A DNA stretch of 64,000 bases, from positions 4,898,001 through 4,962,000 of the forward strand of contig NZ_CP094534.1 in assembly GCF_022811645.1 (NCBI RefSeq), given 5' to 3'. Shown here in pieces: positions 10,891 through 22,029 of the stretch; within the stretch, counting starts at the first letter, position 1, and the number at the start of each line of letters is the position of its first letter. The notes below the pieces were generated by a model. That model searched no databases. It was not told the DNA's origin and saw only the letters and a program-made list of their open reading frames with translations. The translations under genes were made by a program, and so were the position numbers. The DNA is from Hymenobacter monticola. GTDB taxonomy: Bacteria > Bacteroidota > Bacteroidia > Cytophagales > Hymenobacteraceae.

Positions 10891-11529
10891 CTACAGCCCG
10901 CCCCGGTCCCAGGCGTCAATCTCGGCCTGCAGGTTGCGGCGGGCGGCGGCGTCCAGCTCGGCGCGCAGGGCGGGGGTGCGGAAGAGGACCGGCGCGGCCA
11001 GCATGTTGGCCAGCACCTTGCGGCGGCCGGGGCGGTAGAGCAGGTCGGGCACGAGGCGGTATTCCTGCCGCACCTGGCGGGCGTAGGCCCAATAGTCCGC
11101 CTCCGGGGCGCCGAGGATGCTCAGGTCGGCATCGAGAAAAAACAGCAGGTCGGCGTCGTTGGGGGGTTGGGGCTGGGTGTGGTCGGCGGTGCGCTCGATG
11201 AGCAAGGCCACGCGCTGTTGCCGCGTGGGCTCCAGGTCCGAATGCTGGAGAAACGCGAGTGCCTCGGCGGCGCTGCGGGCTTCGTTGTCGGATTTCAGGG
11301 CGTTGTACACGGCATCGTGGTACCACACGGCCAGCTGCACCACCACGGGGTCTTGCAGGTCGGCCGTCTCCACCCGGTCCAGTAGGTTCTCGATGTGCTG
11401 CAGGGTGTGGTAGTGGCGCGTGGGGGCCTGGTAAGCAGCGCTCAGCCGCTGGATTTCGGCTTCGCGCCGGGCGGCGTCGGGCACAAGCGAGGCGGTGAGG
11501 CGGTGCCAGCGGGCGGCGAGGTCGGTCAT
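10891..11529 (-). CDS. HD-superfamily metal-dependent phosphohydrolase
   Basis: A 212-residue predicted HD-domain hydrolase. Family signatures are HYHTLQHI (about 39-46), WYHDAVYN (about 69-76), which holds the HD pair, and ERTADHTQ followed by FLDADLSILG with a conserved Asp, all expected metal ligands. The substrate is unknown; relatives are annotated as predicted metal-dependent HD phosphohydrolases. The start is set at ATG 11529 (MTDLAARWHRL). The frame stays open far upstream, but that stretch is antisense-type sequence over the GAF gene and is not credible protein. It lies 53 bases downstream of the GAF-domain gene on the same strand, so the two are probably cotranscribed. Confidence 0.88.
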   Translation of the reverse strand: MTDLAARWHRLTASLVPDAARREAEIQRLSAAYQAPTRHYHTLQHIENLLDRVETADLQDPVVVQLAVWYHDAVYNALKSDNEARSAAEALAFLQHSDLEPTRQQRVALLIERTADHTQPQPPNDADLLFFLDADLSILGAPEADYWAYARQVRQEYRLVPDLLYRPGRRKVLANMLAAPVLFRTPALRAELDAAARRNLQAEIDAWDRGGL

Positions 11530-11582
11530 CGATGCATCGGAATGGTTTTCCAAATGACGCACTTTTGCATGTATCGCCTCTG

Positions 11583-12302
11583 CTACGATTGCACCGCCCG
11601 CAGCTCGCGGTACAGCGTTTGGGCCAGGAAGCGGGCCTCGTCCAGCCGCGAGGCGTCGTAGCGCTGGGTGTCTTCGGCAGCGGGGGCGGCGTCCCACTGG
11701 TGCAGCTCGGCCAGGGTGGTGAGGCGGCTCAGCGACTGTTGCACCACGCCGTCGAGGCGGGCGCGCAGGGCTTCGGGCAGTTGGAAGCCCGTGGCCAAGG
11801 CGGCCTGCAGGCGCAGCAACTCCTGGGCCACCAGCGCTAGGTCTTTCAGCAGGGCGCCCTCGGCCGGGGTGAGCTGGCGGGGGCGGCGGTCGATGATGCA
11901 GAGGCTGCCCACGCCCAAGCCTTCGGGGGAGCGCAGGGCCTGCGCGGCGTAGAAACCAAGGTTGAGGTGCTGGGCCACGAAGGGGTTGACCAGCTCGCAG
12001 GGCTGGGCCACGAGGTCGCGGAATTCGGTGAGGCCTTCGTGGAGAATGGCCACCGAGCACATGCTGTCTTCGCGGCTCACCACCTGCGCATCGGGCAGGC
12101 CCTCGTTGCCGATGAACACCACGTCGTCGGCCCGCACGAGGCTCACCAGGGCAATGGGGATGTCGAAGAGCCGGGCCACGATGCTCACGAAGTCGTTGAA
12201 CACCTCCTGGCCAGGCGTGCCCAGTACCTGGTAAGGCTGCAGGGCTTCCAGGCGTTCGTGTTCGTGCGAGGGGAGCAGGCCGGGGTACTTTAATGAATCC
12301 AT
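11583..12302 (-). CDS. GAF-domain protein
   Basis: A 239-residue cytoplasmic protein. Residues about 10-170 match the stand-alone GAF sensor type: N-terminal ERLEALQPYQVLGTP, then IVARLFDIPIALVSLV, FIGNEGL, the pattern SMCSVAIL, and GVGSLCIIDRRPRQLTP. The C-terminal 70 residues are helical with no output domain, so it may bind a small ligand and pass the signal on by protein contact. Proteins of this type often act next to histidine kinases in Bacteroidota; no kinase is adjacent here. It starts at ATG 12302 and is followed by the HD hydrolase on the same strand. Confidence 0.88.
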   Translation of the reverse strand: MDSLKYPGLLPSHEHERLEALQPYQVLGTPGQEVFNDFVSIVARLFDIPIALVSLVRADDVVFIGNEGLPDAQVVSREDSMCSVAILHEGLTEFRDLVAQPCELVNPFVAQHLNLGFYAAQALRSPEGLGVGSLCIIDRRPRQLTPAEGALLKDLALVAQELLRLQAALATGFQLPEALRARLDGVVQQSLSRLTTLAELHQWDAAPAAEDTQRYDASRLDEARFLAQTLYRELRAVQS

Positions 12303-12474
12303 ACAGCAAAAAACAGCTACAATCGGTCAACTAACTGCTGAGGTTGGCGAATGGAGCGGACTGGCCTGCAAAATGCTGCCGTTACTCGGTGGACGCGCCC
12401 AGGTAACGAGCAGTAAACCGTCAGGACTGAAAAAGGATTGGGCAGTGCCGGTAGAATCGCGGCCAGTCGGTGCC

Positions 12475-13332
12475 CTACCGGCAGCCCCCGCGCCGTTCGG
12501 CCGCTGCCAGCGCCGCCGAATCGGCCGGGGCCAGGGCACCGCTTTCGGCCAGCGCGGTGCGCAGATTCTCGCCGTGCTGGTTGGGCAAGCAGGGGTTGAG
12601 GCCGGCTTGCAGCAGCAGGCGCAGCACGGCCCCCGGGTGGCGGGGCCGCTGGTAATGAGCCAGGGCAAAGCCCACGGGCTCGATGAGGCTGCCGTCGGCG
12701 CGCACCCAACGGGCGTTGGGGTGGGCGCCGTGGCGCAGCAGCAGGCCCACCAGCGCGGGGCTGGGCTTTTCCTGGAAAAGGGCGTGGTAGAGGACGGGCT
12801 GCCCGTCCATGAACTGGCTTTTTTCGGTTTCTACCTGGTTGGGGTCGGCCCCGCTCCAGAGCAAGGCCTGCGCCCAGCGCACGTCGTTTTTCCGCACGGC
12901 CTCGTACAGGCTGCCGCGCACCAGCCCCAGCCCAGCCACGGTCGCCCAACCGGCCAGTACCACCGTGGCCGTGGCGGCCACCCGCCAGCGCCCGCGGCCC
13001 CGGCTTGCCTGCCAGCCCAGGGCCAGCAGTAGCTCGGCGCCGCACACCAGCGCCGACACCAGGTAGCCGGTGCCACTCATCCAAAACAGCACCCCGTGCG
13101 CCGCCACCGCCGCCAGTCCCACCCGCAGCCAGCGCGTGGCCGGCGCTGACGCTGGCTGGCCCTGGGCCACGTAGCCCACCCAGCTCAGCCAGAAGCAGCA
13201 GGGCGCCAGAAAAAAGGTGAGCAGGCTCAGATAAGGGACGGCGGCGGTGAGCAGCGCCAGCGCCAGCCCCGCGTAGAGCAGGCGGTCGGCCCATTGCAGC
13301 AAGCGGCTTTCGGTGGGTGGCGTGGGCGTCAT
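12475..13332 (-). CDS. Membrane protein with C-terminal ankyrin repeats
   Basis: A 285-residue protein starting at ATG 13332 (MTPTPPTESRLL). The first half contains about four hydrophobic helices (ALALLTAAVPYLSLLTFFL, then two short segments and AATATVVLAGWATVAGL). The second half carries two to three degenerate ankyrin repeats: LYEAVRKNDVRWAQALLWSG followed by ADPNQ, then PALVGLLLRHGAHPNAR, then AVLRLLLQAGLNP..NQHGENLRTAL. Ankyrin repeats mediate protein contacts; no partner can be named. The frame is open another 82 codons upstream but that region lacks protein character. Confidence 0.75.
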   Translation of the reverse strand: MTPTPPTESRLLQWADRLLYAGLALALLTAAVPYLSLLTFFLAPCCFWLSWVGYVAQGQPASAPATRWLRVGLAAVAAHGVLFWMSGTGYLVSALVCGAELLLALGWQASRGRGRWRVAATATVVLAGWATVAGLGLVRGSLYEAVRKNDVRWAQALLWSGADPNQVETEKSQFMDGQPVLYHALFQEKPSPALVGLLLRHGAHPNARWVRADGSLIEPVGFALAHYQRPRHPGAVLRLLLQAGLNPCLPNQHGENLRTALAESGALAPADSAALAAAERRGGCR

Positions 13333-13597
13333 GCGGGGGCGGTGGGCGAAGGGTAGCCTATGGCGCAAGCAAGGTTTCGATGAACAAAGATGGAACGGCA
13401 CGAGGCTTCGACCAGTGTGTTTCAGCGTGAGCCAGGGGCAAATGCTAATGTCCTTAAAAAGAGCCTGCCATTGTTCGCAATGGTCAATAATGGCGTTTTT
13501 AGGTCTTAGCACAAAGTCTAACAGCGCGGTATTTTGGTTTGTGTCGTCCTCAAGCGGATTCTTACATTCGGCTTTCACTCACTAATCCGCCCCGCCC

Positions 13598-14296
13598 ATG
13601 CTCCGCTTCGTGTCGCTCCTGCTACTGGGTGTGCTGCTTCTGGGCAGCGCCGCGTGTAAAAAAACGGAGCCAGTTGAGATTGACGGCGTGTCATTCGTTG
13701 ATGGGCTTCCGTATTATCATTTCATTGACGCAGACCGCCAGTGGTTTAGTGAGGTGCCTGGTACCGTGTGGACGTTTGAAAATGGACGAGGCGTCCAGCG
13801 TCGCTACACCGTATCAATTACCCAGCACCTACAAATCAAGAATAAGATTCGCATCAGCGGCATACTCAGCGACTCCTATAAATTGGTCAGCTACTACGAT
13901 GAAGCCATTTTTGCGCTCACAAATGTGGACGCTACCAGTTCTGACTCAGGTGGACGGTTTGAGTTTTATACCGACCCCACCGTTACCCCAAACCACCAAC
14001 CCGTTTCGGGGCAGAGCCGGCTCCGGGCACAGGCCAACTGGTTCGCTTTTTTGGGCACAGAAAAATGCATAACCGACTATTATCATCCGAAAAACGACCA
14101 ATTGAGCGGGCCTTTCGAGCAGCTTGCCAGCCGTGGGACATCTTATTCAGAAGTTGCCAGATTTTCTGTCTTTCCTCGCGGACAGAGCGCCCCTCCTTCT
14201 GCGCCTACTAGCCTGTTTGCGCTGTATTACGACCATCAGCATGGGCTGATTCGGCTGGTGGATTGGGCTGGCGACGTATGGAACCGCGTCCCCTAA
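13598..14296 (+). CDS. Lipoprotein of unknown function
   Basis: A 232-residue protein starting at ATG 13598. The N-terminus is a clear SPII signal with lipobox GSAAC (Cys20) followed by KKTEP, so it should be anchored in the envelope. The remainder is a beta-rich domain (WTFENGRGVQRRYTVSI, ARFSVFPRG, LFALYYDHQHGLIRLVDW) without motifs I recognise. GC content is somewhat lower than that of its neighbours. It is convergent with the gene at 14589-15311, and the intervening 292 bases contain the 42-bp palindrome array. Confidence 0.75.
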   Translation: MLRFVSLLLLGVLLLGSAACKKTEPVEIDGVSFVDGLPYYHFIDADRQWFSEVPGTVWTFENGRGVQRRYTVSITQHLQIKNKIRISGILSDSYKLVSYYDEAIFALTNVDATSSDSGGRFEFYTDPTVTPNHQPVSGQSRLRAQANWFAFLGTEKCITDYYHPKNDQLSGPFEQLASRGTSYSEVARFSVFPRGQSAPPSAPTSLFALYYDHQHGLIRLVDWAGDVWNRVP

Positions 14297-17786: not shown

Positions 17787-19235
17787 TTATTCCGCCTTCT
17801 GCGCCAGCCGCAGCTTGCTGTGCTTGCGGCCGTACCCATAGTAGATGGCCATGCCCAGCGCCAGCCACACAATGAGGCGCAGCCACGTTTCCCAGGGCAG
17901 CGAAGCCATCATCACGAGGCACACGAGGATGCCCAGAATGGGCACCACCGGCACCCAGGGCGTGCGGAAGCTACGCGGCGCGTCGGGGTTGGTGCGGCGC
18001 ATAATCATCACGCCCAGGCACACCATCACGAAGGCCAGCAGCGTGCCGATGCTCGTCATTTCGCCCACCACCGAAATGGGCACGAAGCCCGCAAACAGCG
18101 CAATGAACGTGCCCAGCAGCAGCGTCGACTGCGCAGGCGTGTTGAAAACCGGGTGCAGGCGCGAGAACACCGGCGGCAGCAGCCCATCCTTCGACATCGA
18201 GAAAAACACCCGCGACTGCCCCAGCAAATCGACCAGAATCACGGAAGTATAGCCCACCAGAATGGCCAGAATCACGGCCGACGACAGCCAGGCGTAGGGC
18301 GTTTTCTCAATGGCCACGGCCACCGGCGCCGCGTTGTCTTTGAACTCGGTGTAATTGGCCAAGCCCGTGAGCACGTGCCCAAACAACACGAATAGCACCG
18401 TGCACACTGCCAGCGAGCCAAGAATGCCCACCGGCATGTTGCGCTGCGGGTTCTTGGTTTCCTGGGCCATGGTGGCCACGATGTCGAAGCCGATGAAGAC
18501 AAAGAAGATGACGCCCGCCCCGCGCAGGATACCGCTCAGCCCGAACTCGCCGAAGGTGCCGGTATTGGCCGGGATGTAGGGCTGGTAGTTGGCCGGGTCG
18601 ATGTACTGCCAGCCCAGCGCGATGAACACCAGCACCACGGCCACCTTCAGGGCTACCACCAGCGCATTGAACCAGGCCGAGCCCTTGGTGCCGCGCGTCA
18701 CGATGGCCGTAATGGCCAGCACGATGAGCATGGCCGGCACGTTCACGAAGCCGCTCACGGTGCTGCCGTCGGCCAGCGTGGCCGACTCAAACGGCGACAT
18801 CACCAGCCGCGCCGGAATGTGCAGCCCGTACTTCCCCAGAAACTTGATGAGGTATTGCGACCAGCTGATGGCTACCGTTGCCGCGCCCACCGAGTACTCC
18901 AGCACCAAGTCCCAGCCAATAATCCAGGCAAACAACTCGCCCATGGTGGCATAGGAATAGGTATAAGCCGAGCCCGACACGGGCACCAGCGCGGCAAACT
19001 CGGCGTAGCACAGCGCCGAGAAGGCGCAGCCCACGGCCGCTACCACGAAAGAAAGGGTAACGGCTGGCCCCGCGTTGTTCGCCGCCGCAATTCCGGTAAG
19101 CGAAAACAAGCCTGCTCCTATAATAACGCCAATGCCAATGGCAATGAGGCTGATGCCGTTGAGGCTACGTTTGAGGGTGTTGCCGCCCGTTTCGGCCGCT
19201 TCGGCCCGAAGCAGCTCTAGTGATTTTTTAAGCAT
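17787..19235 (-). CDS. APC-superfamily amino-acid permease (cationic amino-acid transporter type)
   Basis: A 482-residue inner-membrane transporter. The N-terminus LKRSLNGISLIAIGIGVIIG followed by AGLFSLTGIAA is the first APC helix with the GxGIxxGIF-like substrate-site motif; about 12-13 hydrophobic helices follow, with a conserved EFAALVPVSGSAYTYSY segment in helix 3 and FFVFIGFDIVATMAQETKNP in helix 6. This is the CAT/YfnA type, which imports amino acids by proton symport or exchange; the substrate is not determinable here. The start is ATG 19235. A start at 19301 would add residues MLRCAQHDS, which are only a translation of the neighbouring inverted repeat. Confidence 0.93.
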   Translation of the reverse strand: MLKKSLELLRAEAAETGGNTLKRSLNGISLIAIGIGVIIGAGLFSLTGIAAANNAGPAVTLSFVVAAVGCAFSALCYAEFAALVPVSGSAYTYSYATMGELFAWIIGWDLVLEYSVGAATVAISWSQYLIKFLGKYGLHIPARLVMSPFESATLADGSTVSGFVNVPAMLIVLAITAIVTRGTKGSAWFNALVVALKVAVVLVFIALGWQYIDPANYQPYIPANTGTFGEFGLSGILRGAGVIFFVFIGFDIVATMAQETKNPQRNMPVGILGSLAVCTVLFVLFGHVLTGLANYTEFKDNAAPVAVAIEKTPYAWLSSAVILAILVGYTSVILVDLLGQSRVFFSMSKDGLLPPVFSRLHPVFNTPAQSTLLLGTFIALFAGFVPISVVGEMTSIGTLLAFVMVCLGVMIMRRTNPDAPRSFRTPWVPVVPILGILVCLVMMASLPWETWLRLIVWLALGMAIYYGYGRKHSKLRLAQKAE

Positions 19236-19275
19236 GTAGTTATTGAGCGCGCCGGTCGGCACGCGTATTAATGAA

Positions 19276-19364
19276 CTGTCATGCTGAGCGCAGCGAAGCA
19301 CCTTACCACGACGCGACGATTTGTGCGAACGTGATAAGCTGCTTCGCTGCGCTCAGCATGACAG
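19276..19364. repeat. Inverted-repeat element, family B copy 1
   Basis: Arms 19276-19305 and 19335-19364 match at 29 of 30 positions (tip CTGTCATGCTGAGCGCAGCG). It lies between the LLM monooxygenase gene and the permease gene, both on the minus strand. Related copies are at 49846, 56984 and, with the variant CATCCTGAGCG, 62763. Confidence 0.9.
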
Positions 19365-19378
19365 ACGAAAGGCGTTAC

Positions 19379-20398
19379 TCACGCCAGCACCTGAATAACC
19401 GACTCCGAAAACCGCTCCATCTCCTCCAGCTGCGGACTGGCCTGCAATAGGAAAAAGTCTACGCCCACTTTCTCGAACTCCCCAATCCGGTCCTGCAGCT
19501 GGGCGGGCGTACCCGTCAGGCCCGTGCGCAGGCCGCGGTTCGACACCGAGTAGTCCTGCAGCGACACTTGCTGCTCCAGCTGCGTGCCGGCCAGCCACTG
19601 CTGGTAGTTGCCGTAGCCCGAGGCCGAGGCCTGCACGTTGGTGATGCGGTCCAACTCTTTTTTTACCTCGAGCTCGGTGTTGCGCACAATGGAGTAGCCG
19701 GCCACCCCAAATTTCATCGGCGGCAGGCCTTTCTGCTCGCGGCGGCGGCGCATATCGGCAATGCGGGCGCCTATGAGTTCGGGCGAGTCGCCGTGCATTA
19801 CGTAGCCGTCGCACTGGGTTGAGATGAGGTCCTTGGCCGCTTCCGATTCGCCGCCGGCGTAGAGGAACGGCGCCTTGACAGGCTTGGGCTGCAGGATGTT
19901 GTCGGCCACTTGGTAGTACTTGCCCTCGTAGCTGAAATGGTCCTGCGTCCACACGTTCTTCACCACGTCGAGCCACTCGCGGGTGCGGGCGTACCGGTCG
20001 TCGTGCTGCTCGAAGTGCAGGCCGTACTTCGTGGCCTCGTCGCGCCACCAGCTCGACACCACGTTCAGCGACAAGCGGCCGGGCGCAATTAAATCAATGT
20101 TGGCGGCCTGCTTGGCCAGCAGCGCGGGGTTGTGGAAGGTGGGGCGCACGGCCACCATGATTTCCAGCTGCTCGGTCACAGCAGCCAGCGCGGCGGCCGT
20201 GCTCCAGGCTTCCAGCGACGGTGCCTCGGTGCCCTTGATGTCGTTCAAATACAGTTCGGCGATGAGCGTGAGGTCGTAGCCCCAACCCTCGCTGCGCTGC
20301 GCCAGCTGCTTCACGTAGCTCCAGTCGGTGGGCATCTGCTCGTCCTCGACGTTGCGCAGCCAGCCCCCAAAAATGGGCATCCAATATCCAAATTTCAT
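19379..20398 (-). CDS. LLM-class flavin-dependent monooxygenase
   Basis: A 339-residue bacterial luciferase-like FMN-dependent oxygenase with a TIM-barrel fold. It starts MKFGYWMPIFGGWLRNVEDE and shows the SsuD/SfnG/RutA-type motifs: GYDLTLIAELYLND, VAVRPTFHNPALLAKQAA, LSLNVVSSWWRDEATKYG, DDRYARTREWLDVVK, FLYAGGESEAAKDL. Relatives cleave C-S bonds of sulfonates or sulfones, or open the uracil ring. The ATG at 20398 aligns with the family; 20425 would add nine residues. It is the second gene of a unit with the ATP-grasp gene (140-base gap) downstream of a SAM riboswitch, which favours a sulfur-scavenging role over pyrimidine cleavage (inference). A family B repeat follows the stop. Confidence 0.9.
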   Translation of the reverse strand: MKFGYWMPIFGGWLRNVEDEQMPTDWSYVKQLAQRSEGWGYDLTLIAELYLNDIKGTEAPSLEAWSTAAALAAVTEQLEIMVAVRPTFHNPALLAKQAANIDLIAPGRLSLNVVSSWWRDEATKYGLHFEQHDDRYARTREWLDVVKNVWTQDHFSYEGKYYQVADNILQPKPVKAPFLYAGGESEAAKDLISTQCDGYVMHGDSPELIGARIADMRRRREQKGLPPMKFGVAGYSIVRNTELEVKKELDRITNVQASASGYGNYQQWLAGTQLEQQVSLQDYSVSNRGLRTGLTGTPAQLQDRIGEFEKVGVDFFLLQASPQLEEMERFSESVIQVLA

Positions 20399-20538
20399 GG
20401 CAGTTTTCTTATTGCCAACCGTCATTGCAGCGCACAGCGAAACACCCTCTCCCGGTGAGTATTCTTCGCTGCAACGAAGCGGCGAGGATGCCTCGCTGCA
20501 CGCCGTGTTGACGGTTAACCTATTTCTTGATAAGCGGC

Positions 20539-21534
20539 TTAAGCCGTTGCCAACTCGACTTGCACGGCCGCCGGCACCGCAGCCGGCAGCTGCGTTTCGA
20601 GGTAGTCTACGAAGCGGGCGTAGGGGTCAAAACCCACCACGTTCACGGCATCGGCCACGAAGTTGGAAAGAGCGTTGATGTCGTAGAACAGCACGTCGCC
20701 GGTGCGGTCGTCGATGAGGTATTCGATGCCGCCCACGTCGATTTTGGCGGCGGCCACGATGCGCTCCACGGCGGCAATTACCTCAGCCGGCGGCGTGAAG
20801 GCTTCCACCTGAATCCCTTTTTTCGGCGCCTCCGTGAGGCAAAACTCGGCCGACTGTTCCTCCGGAATCTGGCAGATTTCGGCCGGGCACAGGTTGAAGC
20901 TCTCGCCGGTGGTGTACACCTTCATGGCGTAGAGGAACTTGCCGTCCAGCGTTTCCACGCGGTGGATGTTGCCGCCGCGGGGCGTCACGTACTCCTGCAC
21001 CAGGGCAGTCTGGTCAATGCCGAGGTCTATCTGGTTGGCGTCCACGGCCGCTTGCAGGCCCTCAATGGTGTCGAAGCGGATGATGCCCGCGCCGCTGCCG
21101 CCGATGTTCACCTTCACCACGATGGGGAAGCGCAGCTCGCGGGCCGCGTCCACGGCGCGCGAGGCGTGGTTGATGACGCGCGAGGCCGGGTACTTCAGCC
21201 CCAGCGACTCAAACAGCGAGAGCTGCCGGGCCTTGTTGGTTTCGATGCTGGTGGCCACCGAGCCGTTGATGATGCGCGTGCCGATGCGCTCCAAATGCGT
21301 GGCGTAACCGGCCGTGTGGAAGATGCCCTGTCCGTGCCCGCGCAGGTAGGCCGAGGAGCTCATGCGGTTCACCACCAGGCTGTAGCGGCTTTCTTTTTCC
21401 GAAGGGTTGAAGAGGTGGTGGGCGGCGTCAATCTTCTCGTAGGGCAGTCCGCGGCGGTCCAGCTCGGCAAAGAGCGGCTTGAACCATTCGGGGTGCTCGA
21501 AGTAGATGCCAATGGGCTTTTGAACAGCAGACAT
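20539..21534 (-). CDS. RimK-like ATP-grasp ligase under SAM-riboswitch control
   Basis: A 331-residue ATP-grasp enzyme, a family that joins a carboxylate to an amine or thiol through an acyl phosphate. Features: PIVVKVNIGGSGAGIIRF (ATP-binding lysine and Gly loop), ALVQEYV, a basic strand FLYAMKVY, and the C-terminal metal-binding pattern VLFYDINALSNFV with DxN. The N-terminal half (IGIYFEHPEWFKPLF, VVNRMSSSAYLRG) is the pre-ATP-grasp domain. It starts at ATG 21534. It is cotranscribed with the LLM monooxygenase and preceded by an S-box riboswitch about 360 bases upstream. The substrate is unknown; the riboswitch suggests a sulfur-containing or methionine-related compound. Confidence 0.88.
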   Translation of the reverse strand: MSAVQKPIGIYFEHPEWFKPLFAELDRRGLPYEKIDAAHHLFNPSEKESRYSLVVNRMSSSAYLRGHGQGIFHTAGYATHLERIGTRIINGSVATSIETNKARQLSLFESLGLKYPASRVINHASRAVDAARELRFPIVVKVNIGGSGAGIIRFDTIEGLQAAVDANQIDLGIDQTALVQEYVTPRGGNIHRVETLDGKFLYAMKVYTTGESFNLCPAEICQIPEEQSAEFCLTEAPKKGIQVEAFTPPAEVIAAVERIVAAAKIDVGGIEYLIDDRTGDVLFYDINALSNFVADAVNVVGFDPYARFVDYLETQLPAAVPAAVQVELATA

Positions 21535-21760
21535 ACTTGGAAATAAAGTAGTTGAAATACAGGCAAGCGGGCACGCTGCTCAACGCAGGTGGTGAACTGG
21601 CAAAGCCCGAAATGAGAGGAGGATTTGGCCGCCCAGCGCCTTGCGCCAGGCCACGGCCGAACAAGGATGAGAAACCTCGACGGATATGCGCAACACCGCA
21701 GCCGCACATGGCGGCCCGGCGAAGCCAATATGCTCCGGTTTCGGTTTAGCTACCCGCGAT
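21535..21760 (-). other. Leader between riboswitch terminator and ATP-grasp gene, with a Cys-codon leader ORF candidate
   Basis: This 226-base stretch is the transcribed leader after the riboswitch terminator. Two overlapping minus-strand frames are open: ATG 21709 (MCGCGVAHIRRGF) and TTG 21728 (GRHVRLRCCAYPSRF). Both run into the ATP-grasp gene out of frame. Tandem Cys codons near the start of a short upstream frame resemble attenuation leaders of sulfur genes, but neither frame has independent support, and GC-rich DNA is open by chance. No other structure was recognised. Confidence 0.25.
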
Positions 21761-21823
21761 GAAAAAGAGGCACCGGGTTAAGCCAGGCAACAACAGCAAC
21801 AACACGCCATGCCAGCCCGGTGC
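21761..21823 (-). terminator. Terminator hairpin downstream of the SAM riboswitch
   Basis: On the minus strand the 8-bp stem GCACCGGG/CCCGGTGC (21816-21823 with 21770-21777) closes a long loop and is followed at once by CTCTTTTT (21769-21762). Its position after the aptamer and before the ATP-grasp gene fits a transcriptional off-switch formed when SAM is bound. A competing antiterminator would have to involve 21824-21891; I did not resolve it. Confidence 0.65.
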
Positions 21824-21891
21824 ATCAGCGCCAGACGGGCATTAAAAGCTGTAAAAATTGCGGGTTGGTTGTTGGAGGCTTCCACGGCAAC

Positions 21892-21992
21892 TTGTTTTTA
21901 TATGGTCAGGAATTGGCACCGTTTCAGGAATATCCCAGATGGTTGCCGACGCGTCGTAGAGCCTGTCTCTCAGCGTCTCTGTATAAAAACAA
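21892..21992 (-). promoter_or_regulatory. SAM-I (S-box) riboswitch aptamer
   Basis: The minus-strand sequence folds as an S-box. P1 is a perfect 11-bp helix, TTGTTTTTATA (21992-21982) with TATAAAAACAA (21902-21892). Inside are P2 GACGC/GCGTC with the kink-turn segment CTGAGAGACAGGCTC, and P3 GGCAACC paired with GGTGCC, followed by AATTCC and TGACC. The strings GGCAACC ... GGTGCCAATTCC are diagnostic for S-box RNAs. Length is 101 nt, as usual. It should sense S-adenosylmethionine and repress the downstream ATP-grasp and LLM monooxygenase genes when SAM is abundant. Confidence 0.93.
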
Positions 21993-22029
21993 TCCTTTGG
22001 GGAGAAAGAATTGATACGGCAAAGATACA

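Follow-up and report, generated by a model that had tools for sequence, protein, structure and literature searches.

In the stretch of 64,000 nucleotides (nt) of the Hymenobacter monticola genome analysed here (the window; contig NZ_CP094534.1, positions 4,898,001 to 4,962,000), the minus strand carries a SAM-I riboswitch aptamer (S-box, for S-adenosylmethionine, SAM), followed in order by a short leader open reading frame (ORF) ending in a run of cysteine (Cys) codons, an ATP-grasp ligase gene, an LLM-class flavin monooxygenase gene and an amino acid permease gene. Judged from sequence comparison, the 5' leader of this ATP-grasp-LLM(-permease) unit is quite likely to be a two-input sulfur sensor that responds to SAM and to Cys-tRNA, and one control region probably lets the bacterium read both its methionine and its cysteine supply. 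At a slightly lower level of confidence, it also seems probable that the same arrangement runs a sulfur regulon across the order Cytophagales as an RNA AND gate, in which the SAM riboswitch decides whether the poly-Cys leader is translated. The genus Hymenobacter belongs to the family Hymenobacteraceae within this order. The host genome of 6.1 Mb has four S-boxes. Within the named collection, Hymenobacter properus and Hymenobacter sp. CA1UV-4 come closest at this locus, each at 98% in the ATP-grasp protein.

The coordinates of all elements are collected in Table 1. The S-box matches the full RF00162 model (positions 1-108) with a score above the gathering score of 44.4 bits, which places it in the SAM-I family, and it is the sole Rfam match at the gathering score within the window. 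A preliminary description made from the letters alone had claimed a complete S-box with a perfect 11-bp P1 helix, and this significant match bears the claim out, with the outer coordinates 21892-21992 being exact; the ORFs at 20539-21534 and 19379-20425 likewise agree with its placing of the ATP-grasp and LLM genes 3' of the S-box on one strand. The control region that it drew was incomplete, since the leader ORF lying between aptamer and gene had been overlooked. This ORF opens at the GTG at 21885, directly behind the P1 3' strand, its C-terminus reads ...MACCCCCCLA*, and it thus has the form of a short 5'-leader ORF with a cluster of Cys codons, as is found in attenuators. Upstream of the aptamer, TATCTTTG fits TAnnTTTG, which we take to be the consensus of the Bacteroidota -7 box, and hence marks a putative promoter.

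This architecture recurs throughout the family. Matches to the ATP-grasp protein were found in 75 of 204 Hymenobacteraceae genomes, giving 76 loci, and an S-box is present at 71 of these (13/16, 19/20, 20/20 and 19/20 in successive batches), so that the pair does stand behind S-boxes in other Bacteroidota, Pontibacter and Rufibacter relatives included, whose S-boxes Rfam detects; two of the five remaining loci are contig ends (L013, L018) and three (L046, L049, L070) have none in the fetched stretch. As far as sequence goes, S-box control of the ATP-grasp/LLM pair is conserved in the family. All 71 S-boxes are followed by a leader ORF that has three or more Cys codons, 66 of these ORFs being recognised by a uniform rule, three (L064, L068, L076) separately and two (L041, L045) by inspection. 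The rule-based set comprises 67 loci, L018 included, of which 56 start with GTG and 11 with ATG, and in 66 of them the start codon lies 9-14 nt past the ATATAAA motif of the P1 3' strand. The Hymenobacter relatives closest to the window have MACCCCCC or MGCCCCCC as the run, and an example from Pontibacter is MKISTSNRTGISINRNTSTSFGATSSIASVTCCCCCCC. The N-terminal part of the leaders varies freely and is not shared between genera, the Cys cluster is kept, and the last Cys codon lies 0-2 codons from the stop in 91 of 101 leaders.

These features suggest a coordinated mechanism. P1 ends so close to the leader start (6 nt) that a SAM-stabilised P1 should cover the ribosome landing site; a ribosome at that start would in turn lie over the P1 3' strand. 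Binding of SAM would lock P1 and keep ribosomes off the leader ORF, and the ORF would be translated when SAM is low. If Cys-tRNA is low too, the ribosome would stall at the terminal Cys codons, mostly UGU, and shield the RNA behind it, with transcription entering the genes. When either SAM or Cys-tRNA is plentiful, the RNA would be bare and the transcript would be ended there, most likely by Rho; the net outcome would be that the genes are on only when SAM and cysteine are both short. The position of the last Cys codon near the stop suits such an AND gate, since a ribosome that never started and a ribosome that has finished would leave the RNA equally bare, and a stalled one would cover it.

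The order-wide view rests on the reading of 93 S-boxes of the order, the four of the H. monticola genome included, and of 67 S-boxes outside it, which mix genomes of the same class and of other classes; "order" is used here as a label of kinship, and the name Cytophagales follows from the taxonomy of Hymenobacter. A Cys leader follows 35 of the 93 S-boxes of the order and none of the 67 outside it (0/34 at metY, one of these not being locatable). Within the order its presence depends on the target: it was found at 22/31 metY, 0/28 metH, 1/10 metX, 1/6 cystathionine gamma-synthase (CGS), 1/1 ATP-grasp and 10/17 other S-boxes. The four S-boxes of the H. monticola genome follow suit, with a Cys leader at the ATP-grasp gene and metY, and none at metH and the CGS-like gene. 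The ten other targets with a Cys leader are CysH, the reductase of adenosine phosphosulfate (APS) or phosphoadenosine phosphosulfate (PAPS), at L235 (over the curated cut-off) and L236 (the locus overlapping the CysH match), a sulfite/nitrite reductase-like protein (L242, below cut-offs), an NhaC-type transporter (L200, below cut-off), a permease homologous to the third gene of the window (L240, scanned; L238, by eye), SusC/TonB receptors (L256, scanned and below cut-off; L209, by eye), a ferredoxin (L253, over cut-off) and an HPP-like protein without a family match (L222, by eye). Three further cysH S-boxes (G015, G038, G042; L339-L341) were fetched as a prediction and all three have a Cys leader, bringing the cysH S-boxes read to 5/5. 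With cysH (5/5) and metY (22/31), the genes downstream of the leaders include ones that make or acquire cysteine or its sulfur, and for the ATP-grasp/LLM pair such a role is only plausible. By our own reading, Cys leaders bear ten family tags (f1, f2, f44, f46, f47, f51, f55, f56, f59, f62).

Some S-boxes and ORFs of other kinds were met during this reading. In three Hymenobacter genomes, an S-box without a Cys leader precedes a homoserine dehydrogenase-like gene (L204, scanned and over cut-off; L207 and L215, by eye). Outside the order (L098-L101, L118, L125), ORFs that begin MMYA... or MMVCMPY..., some short and some longer, follow closely on the S-boxes. At L309 (G451), around position 1500 of the locus, an ORF ending in CCCCCC precedes a TonB-receptor-like gene with no S-box at the gathering score, and this might be a Cys leader that does without a riboswitch.

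Chance occurrence of the leaders can be excluded, because 200 shuffles of the downstream sequence gave a Cys-rich ORF in a mean of 0.6 of the 93 loci, with a maximum of 4, as compared to the 35 observed, and because cysteine is the only residue to behave in this manner: three identical consecutive residues within the last ten codons were found for Cys at 31 loci and for any other residue at no more than one. A strict pattern of five Cys codons and a stop gave 49 matches in 118 genomes of the order against 6 for the reversed pattern, seven of the 49 coming from one tandem array in G460, and the order-wide pattern list added five cases of S-box, Cys leader and metY (L313, L314, L315, L324, L333). 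The array in question, on contig 5 at 11211-14270, consists of seven identical TGCTGTTGCTGCTGTTAA matches, mostly about 234 bp apart, which apparently are not leader ORFs. A loose poly-Cys ORF pattern had no excess in the H. monticola genome (17 matches against 17 reversed). Selection appears to act on the codons, for which the many synonymous spellings of Cys runs of at least four codons speak; the nearest Hymenobacter group, however, hardly varies in its spelling. The ratio of UGU to UGC is 285:82 in the leaders, and at the same loci it is 19:295 for the ATP-grasp and LLM genes, these being counts from related loci and hence non-independent. Presumably a slower wobble codon, UGU would make the response to low Cys-tRNA sharper.

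The preliminary description had placed a terminator hairpin downstream of the aptamer. An inverted repeat, GCACCGGG (21823-21816) and CCCGGTGC (21777-21770) followed by CTCTTTTT, is indeed present, with its arms enclosing the poly-Cys stretch, but it is absent from the minimum-energy fold of 21740-21900, and of five close relatives aligned, L006 comes near to having it, with one mismatch, and the other four have lost it, so that the hairpin could not be upheld. This repeat and the high score of the aptamer are what would be expected if the SAM riboswitch acted alone through that terminator, with the Cys ORF being accidental or untranslated; such an explanation is very unlikely, as it leaves unaccounted the 35 Cys leaders against 0.6 in shuffled sequence with no other residue alike, as well as the Cys leader at all 71 S-boxes of this locus, and the hairpin on which it depends is not conserved. 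More broadly, our own scan found terminator-like structures at 2/35 Cys leaders, 8/10 leaderless CGS S-boxes and 3/36 metH S-boxes; given that terminators are rare at metH too, Cys leaders do not stand out in this respect. An intrinsic-terminator switch was rejected as a general mechanism on the basis of the 2/35 Cys leaders and the lack of a conserved fold. The classic attenuator has alternative hairpins ending in an intrinsic terminator; with terminator-like structures at so few Cys leaders and no conserved fold, the leader is not classed as that form.

The region in which expression would be decided lies behind the leader stop. Rho is present in the genome, and the RNA following metY Cys leaders is C-rich and G-poor, with a median C:G of 1.73 (n=22) as compared to 0.89 in metH leaders (n=26). 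Termination by Rho on bare post-leader RNA is favoured, and is not claimed. A different coupling of leader and gene would be one in which the gene needs complete translation of the leader, by reinitiation or translational coupling, and stalling at Cys codons lowers expression. This alternative, which we regard as rather improbable, gains from the finding of neither a terminator nor a conserved attenuator fold here and from a precedent in the available part of PMC11260477, where a riboswitch controls an upstream ORF (uORF) whose translation the downstream gene requires; it suffers from the long distance that separates the leader stop from the gene (medians of 281 nt for ATP-grasp and 123.5 nt for metY), which is poor for reinitiation, and from the little sense that turning sulfur assimilation genes off under cysteine shortage would make.

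Several results weigh against the two-input AND gate itself. Folding of the RNA without ligand already gives a formed P1, whose 3' strand has an unpaired probability of 0.03, so that SAM dependence, and with it switching by SAM, is an assumption drawn from knowledge of the S-box family. The five-relative alignment contains no conserved post-leader fold. Tests for pairing between the Cys run and either the leader start or the post-leader RNA gave no clear signal, the mean z against shuffles being -0.54 and -0.19, respectively, and 9% of 101 loci and 4% of 100 loci falling below rank 0.05. High C:G is also observed after metY S-boxes without a Cys leader (1.64, n=9), and hence it does not point to Cys leaders alone. 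The 93 S-boxes are the highest-scoring ones with three duplicates removed, not a random draw, and 9/31 metY S-boxes of the order are without a Cys leader. In at least seven of these nine (L179, L181, L192, L203, L212, L226, L145), P1 is followed at 11-14 nt by a short ORF of another kind, such as MNTQIVSLPLLAALSEASPGNHWNVIAIFPF. It may be that the leader ORF arose before its Cys run did, or that codons other than those for Cys serve here.

As for the enzymes under this control, the best solved relatives of the LLM protein by sequence are 3rao, a putative monooxygenase (412 bits), 8vw6, an alkanesulfonate monooxygenase (348 bits), and 8t0u, a dimethylsulfone monooxygenase (186 bits), and it scores below the equivalog cut-offs of SfnG (TIGR04021, 243.5 vs 382.95 bits) and SsuD (TIGR03565, 172 vs 518.2 bits). 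A sulfur role of this protein is plausible. The ATP-grasp protein lies below the cut-off of the RimK family ligase subfamily (TIGR00768, 60.6 vs 143.4 bits) and just over that of the Pfam RimK domain (24.5 vs 21), and the best fold matches of its model (mean predicted local distance difference test score, pLDDT, 83) are ArgX, LysX and RimK, ligases that join an amine to a carboxylate. A CPxxxC motif (residues 216-221, gene 20542-21534) is invariant in 22 aligned ATP-grasp sequences and might bind a metal or belong to the active site. In 75 of the 76 family loci an LLM gene is present on the same strand in the sequence fetched; at L012, the remaining locus, it lies further downstream. Beyond the family, the two genes are neighbours in Spirosoma and at five Caulobacteraceae/Brevundimonas loci; at four other distant loci (L294, L303, L304, L306), no LLM gene was found in the surroundings of the ATP-grasp gene. 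Eight extra-family loci have no S-box at the gathering score and no Cys-run leader, bar one unrelated-looking Cys-containing frame in L303, and the pair hence seems older than its control region. Our guess for its function is organosulfur scavenging, in which the LLM enzyme would release sulfur from an organosulfur compound that the ATP-grasp ligase would conjugate or prepare; the C-S bond cleavage put forward in the preliminary description is likewise a conjecture. By the NCBIfam model there is no CysH in the H. monticola genome; contrary to our expectation, presence of the pair is not significantly associated with loss of CysH, a match over the cut-off being absent, by our own count, in 25/75 genomes with the pair vs 32/129 without it (p=0.20).

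The presence of a peptide-modifying ligase, PsnB, in the same fold search, and the position of the ORF directly ahead of the pair, raise the question of whether the poly-Cys peptide is itself the product, as a metal- or sulfur-binding peptide or as a substrate of the ATP-grasp and LLM enzymes in a modified-peptide pathway. It is hard to credit such a role, as ORFs of this sort are also met ahead of metY, cysH, permease and TonB-receptor genes, genera do not have the N-terminal part in common, six leaders searched against NCBIfam matched no family, and the pair occurs without such an ORF upstream in the Spirosoma and Caulobacteraceae loci.

Regarding the rest of the unit, the LLM gene more likely starts at the ATG at 20398, a start common to its relatives. 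The permease gene is found 3' of the ATP-grasp/LLM pair in 20 of 52 loci fetched, and in two relatives (L238, L240) its homologue has an S-box and a Cys leader of its own. The gaps between the three genes (20426-20538 and 19236-19378) contain sequence that resembles inverted repeats and is similar from one gap to the other (...GCGCAGCGAAG.../...CTTCGCTGC...); several relatives have no gap between the first two genes, which abut or overlap. In two Hymenobacter genomes (L041, L045), a 5S rRNA gene lies about 400 nt upstream of the S-box-ATP-grasp unit.

Table 1. Elements of the S-box-controlled unit, with positions in the window
Feature	Position	Strand	Remarks
Putative promoter of the S-box transcript, TATCTTTG	22020..22027	-	sequence fit to -7 box
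P1 5' strand (TTGTTTTTATA)	21982..21992	-	perfect 11-bp helix
SAM-I (S-box) aptamer, Rfam bounds	21895..21989	-	RF00162 69.7 bits, E 3.1e-14
P1 3' strand (TATAAAAACAA)	21892..21902	-	6 nt before leader start codon
Leader ORF, GTG start, 35 codons, (V/M)EASNNQPAIFTAFNARLALMHRAGMACCCCCCLA, stop TAA	21778..21885	-	Cys-containing leader at 71/71 S-boxes
Six Cys codons (TGT TGT TGC TGT TGT TGC), proposed cysteine-sensing site	21787..21804	-	codon conservation, excess over shuffles
Post-leader region, 243 nt, proposed site of expression decision	21535..21777	-	contains 3' arm of inverted repeat
ATP-grasp ligase gene, 331 amino acids	20539..21534	-	ArgX/LysX/RimK-like fold, invariant CPxxxC
LLM-class flavin monooxygenase gene, SfnG/SsuD-like	19379..20425	-	likelier start 20398, 339 amino acids
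Amino acid permease gene, probable third gene of the unit	17787..19301	-	likely true start 19235

Riboswitches and leader-peptide attenuators usually occur as alternatives for sensing nutrients. The aptamer resembles other SAM-I RNAs (RF00162) in sequence and fold, and the classic targets metY, metH and metX are found behind it elsewhere in the order; it departs from the usual SAM-I riboswitch in that the start of a leader ORF stands in place of the expression platform and in that the targets reach cysH, the ATP-grasp/LLM pair and permeases. Short uORFs with a Cys run before sulfur genes have their likeness in the mycobacterial poly-Cys leader small ORFs (Canestrari et al. 2020, cited in PMC13236596), which the available part of PMC13236596 describes as cysteine-responsive, and which differ in being leaderless and actinobacterial, with no riboswitch mentioned in that part. 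Similarly, uORFC-8-2 before cysS of Rhodobacterales has conserved Cys codons and a proposed ribosome-mediated attenuation, but it has two Cys codons and an intrinsic terminator, precedes another gene in another phylum, and is presented without mention of a riboswitch in the portion of PMC8632094 at hand. The B12 riboswitch-uORF before ppe2 of M. tuberculosis is alike in that a riboswitch governs translation of a uORF on which the gene depends; it differs by its ligand, B12, and by short-range reinitiation, and the accessible text of PMC11260477 describes no amino-acid-sensing codon run. Two inputs on one leader, one of them SAM, are known from the tandem SAM-I and adenosylcobalamin (AdoCbl) riboswitches of Bacillus clausii metE, in which, according to the available part of PMC2258182, both inputs are aptamers acting on transcription termination, whereas the second input here would be a translating ribosome. 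Neither the union of a SAM riboswitch with a Cys leader peptide nor Cys leaders in Bacteroidota were recognised in a literature search from which subscription papers mostly fell outside, and the union is not described in the available parts of PMC2965389, PMC9373788, PMC2211319, PMC2258182 and PMC6429828. Each half is of a known kind, and their connection in series and order-wide use appear new.

A riboswitch and an attenuator are thus seemingly placed in series on one transcript, and if this is true, the output of the riboswitch is the ORF of the attenuator. The presence of the leader tracks the chemistry of the target, being frequent at the sulfide-fixing metY, invariable at the five cysH S-boxes and absent from all 28 metH S-boxes, and it offers a way of predicting sulfur genes whose function is unknown, the ATP-grasp/LLM pair being one case. 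At the same time, the coupling of leader ORF translation to transcription in Bacteroidota becomes directly testable with simple reporters.

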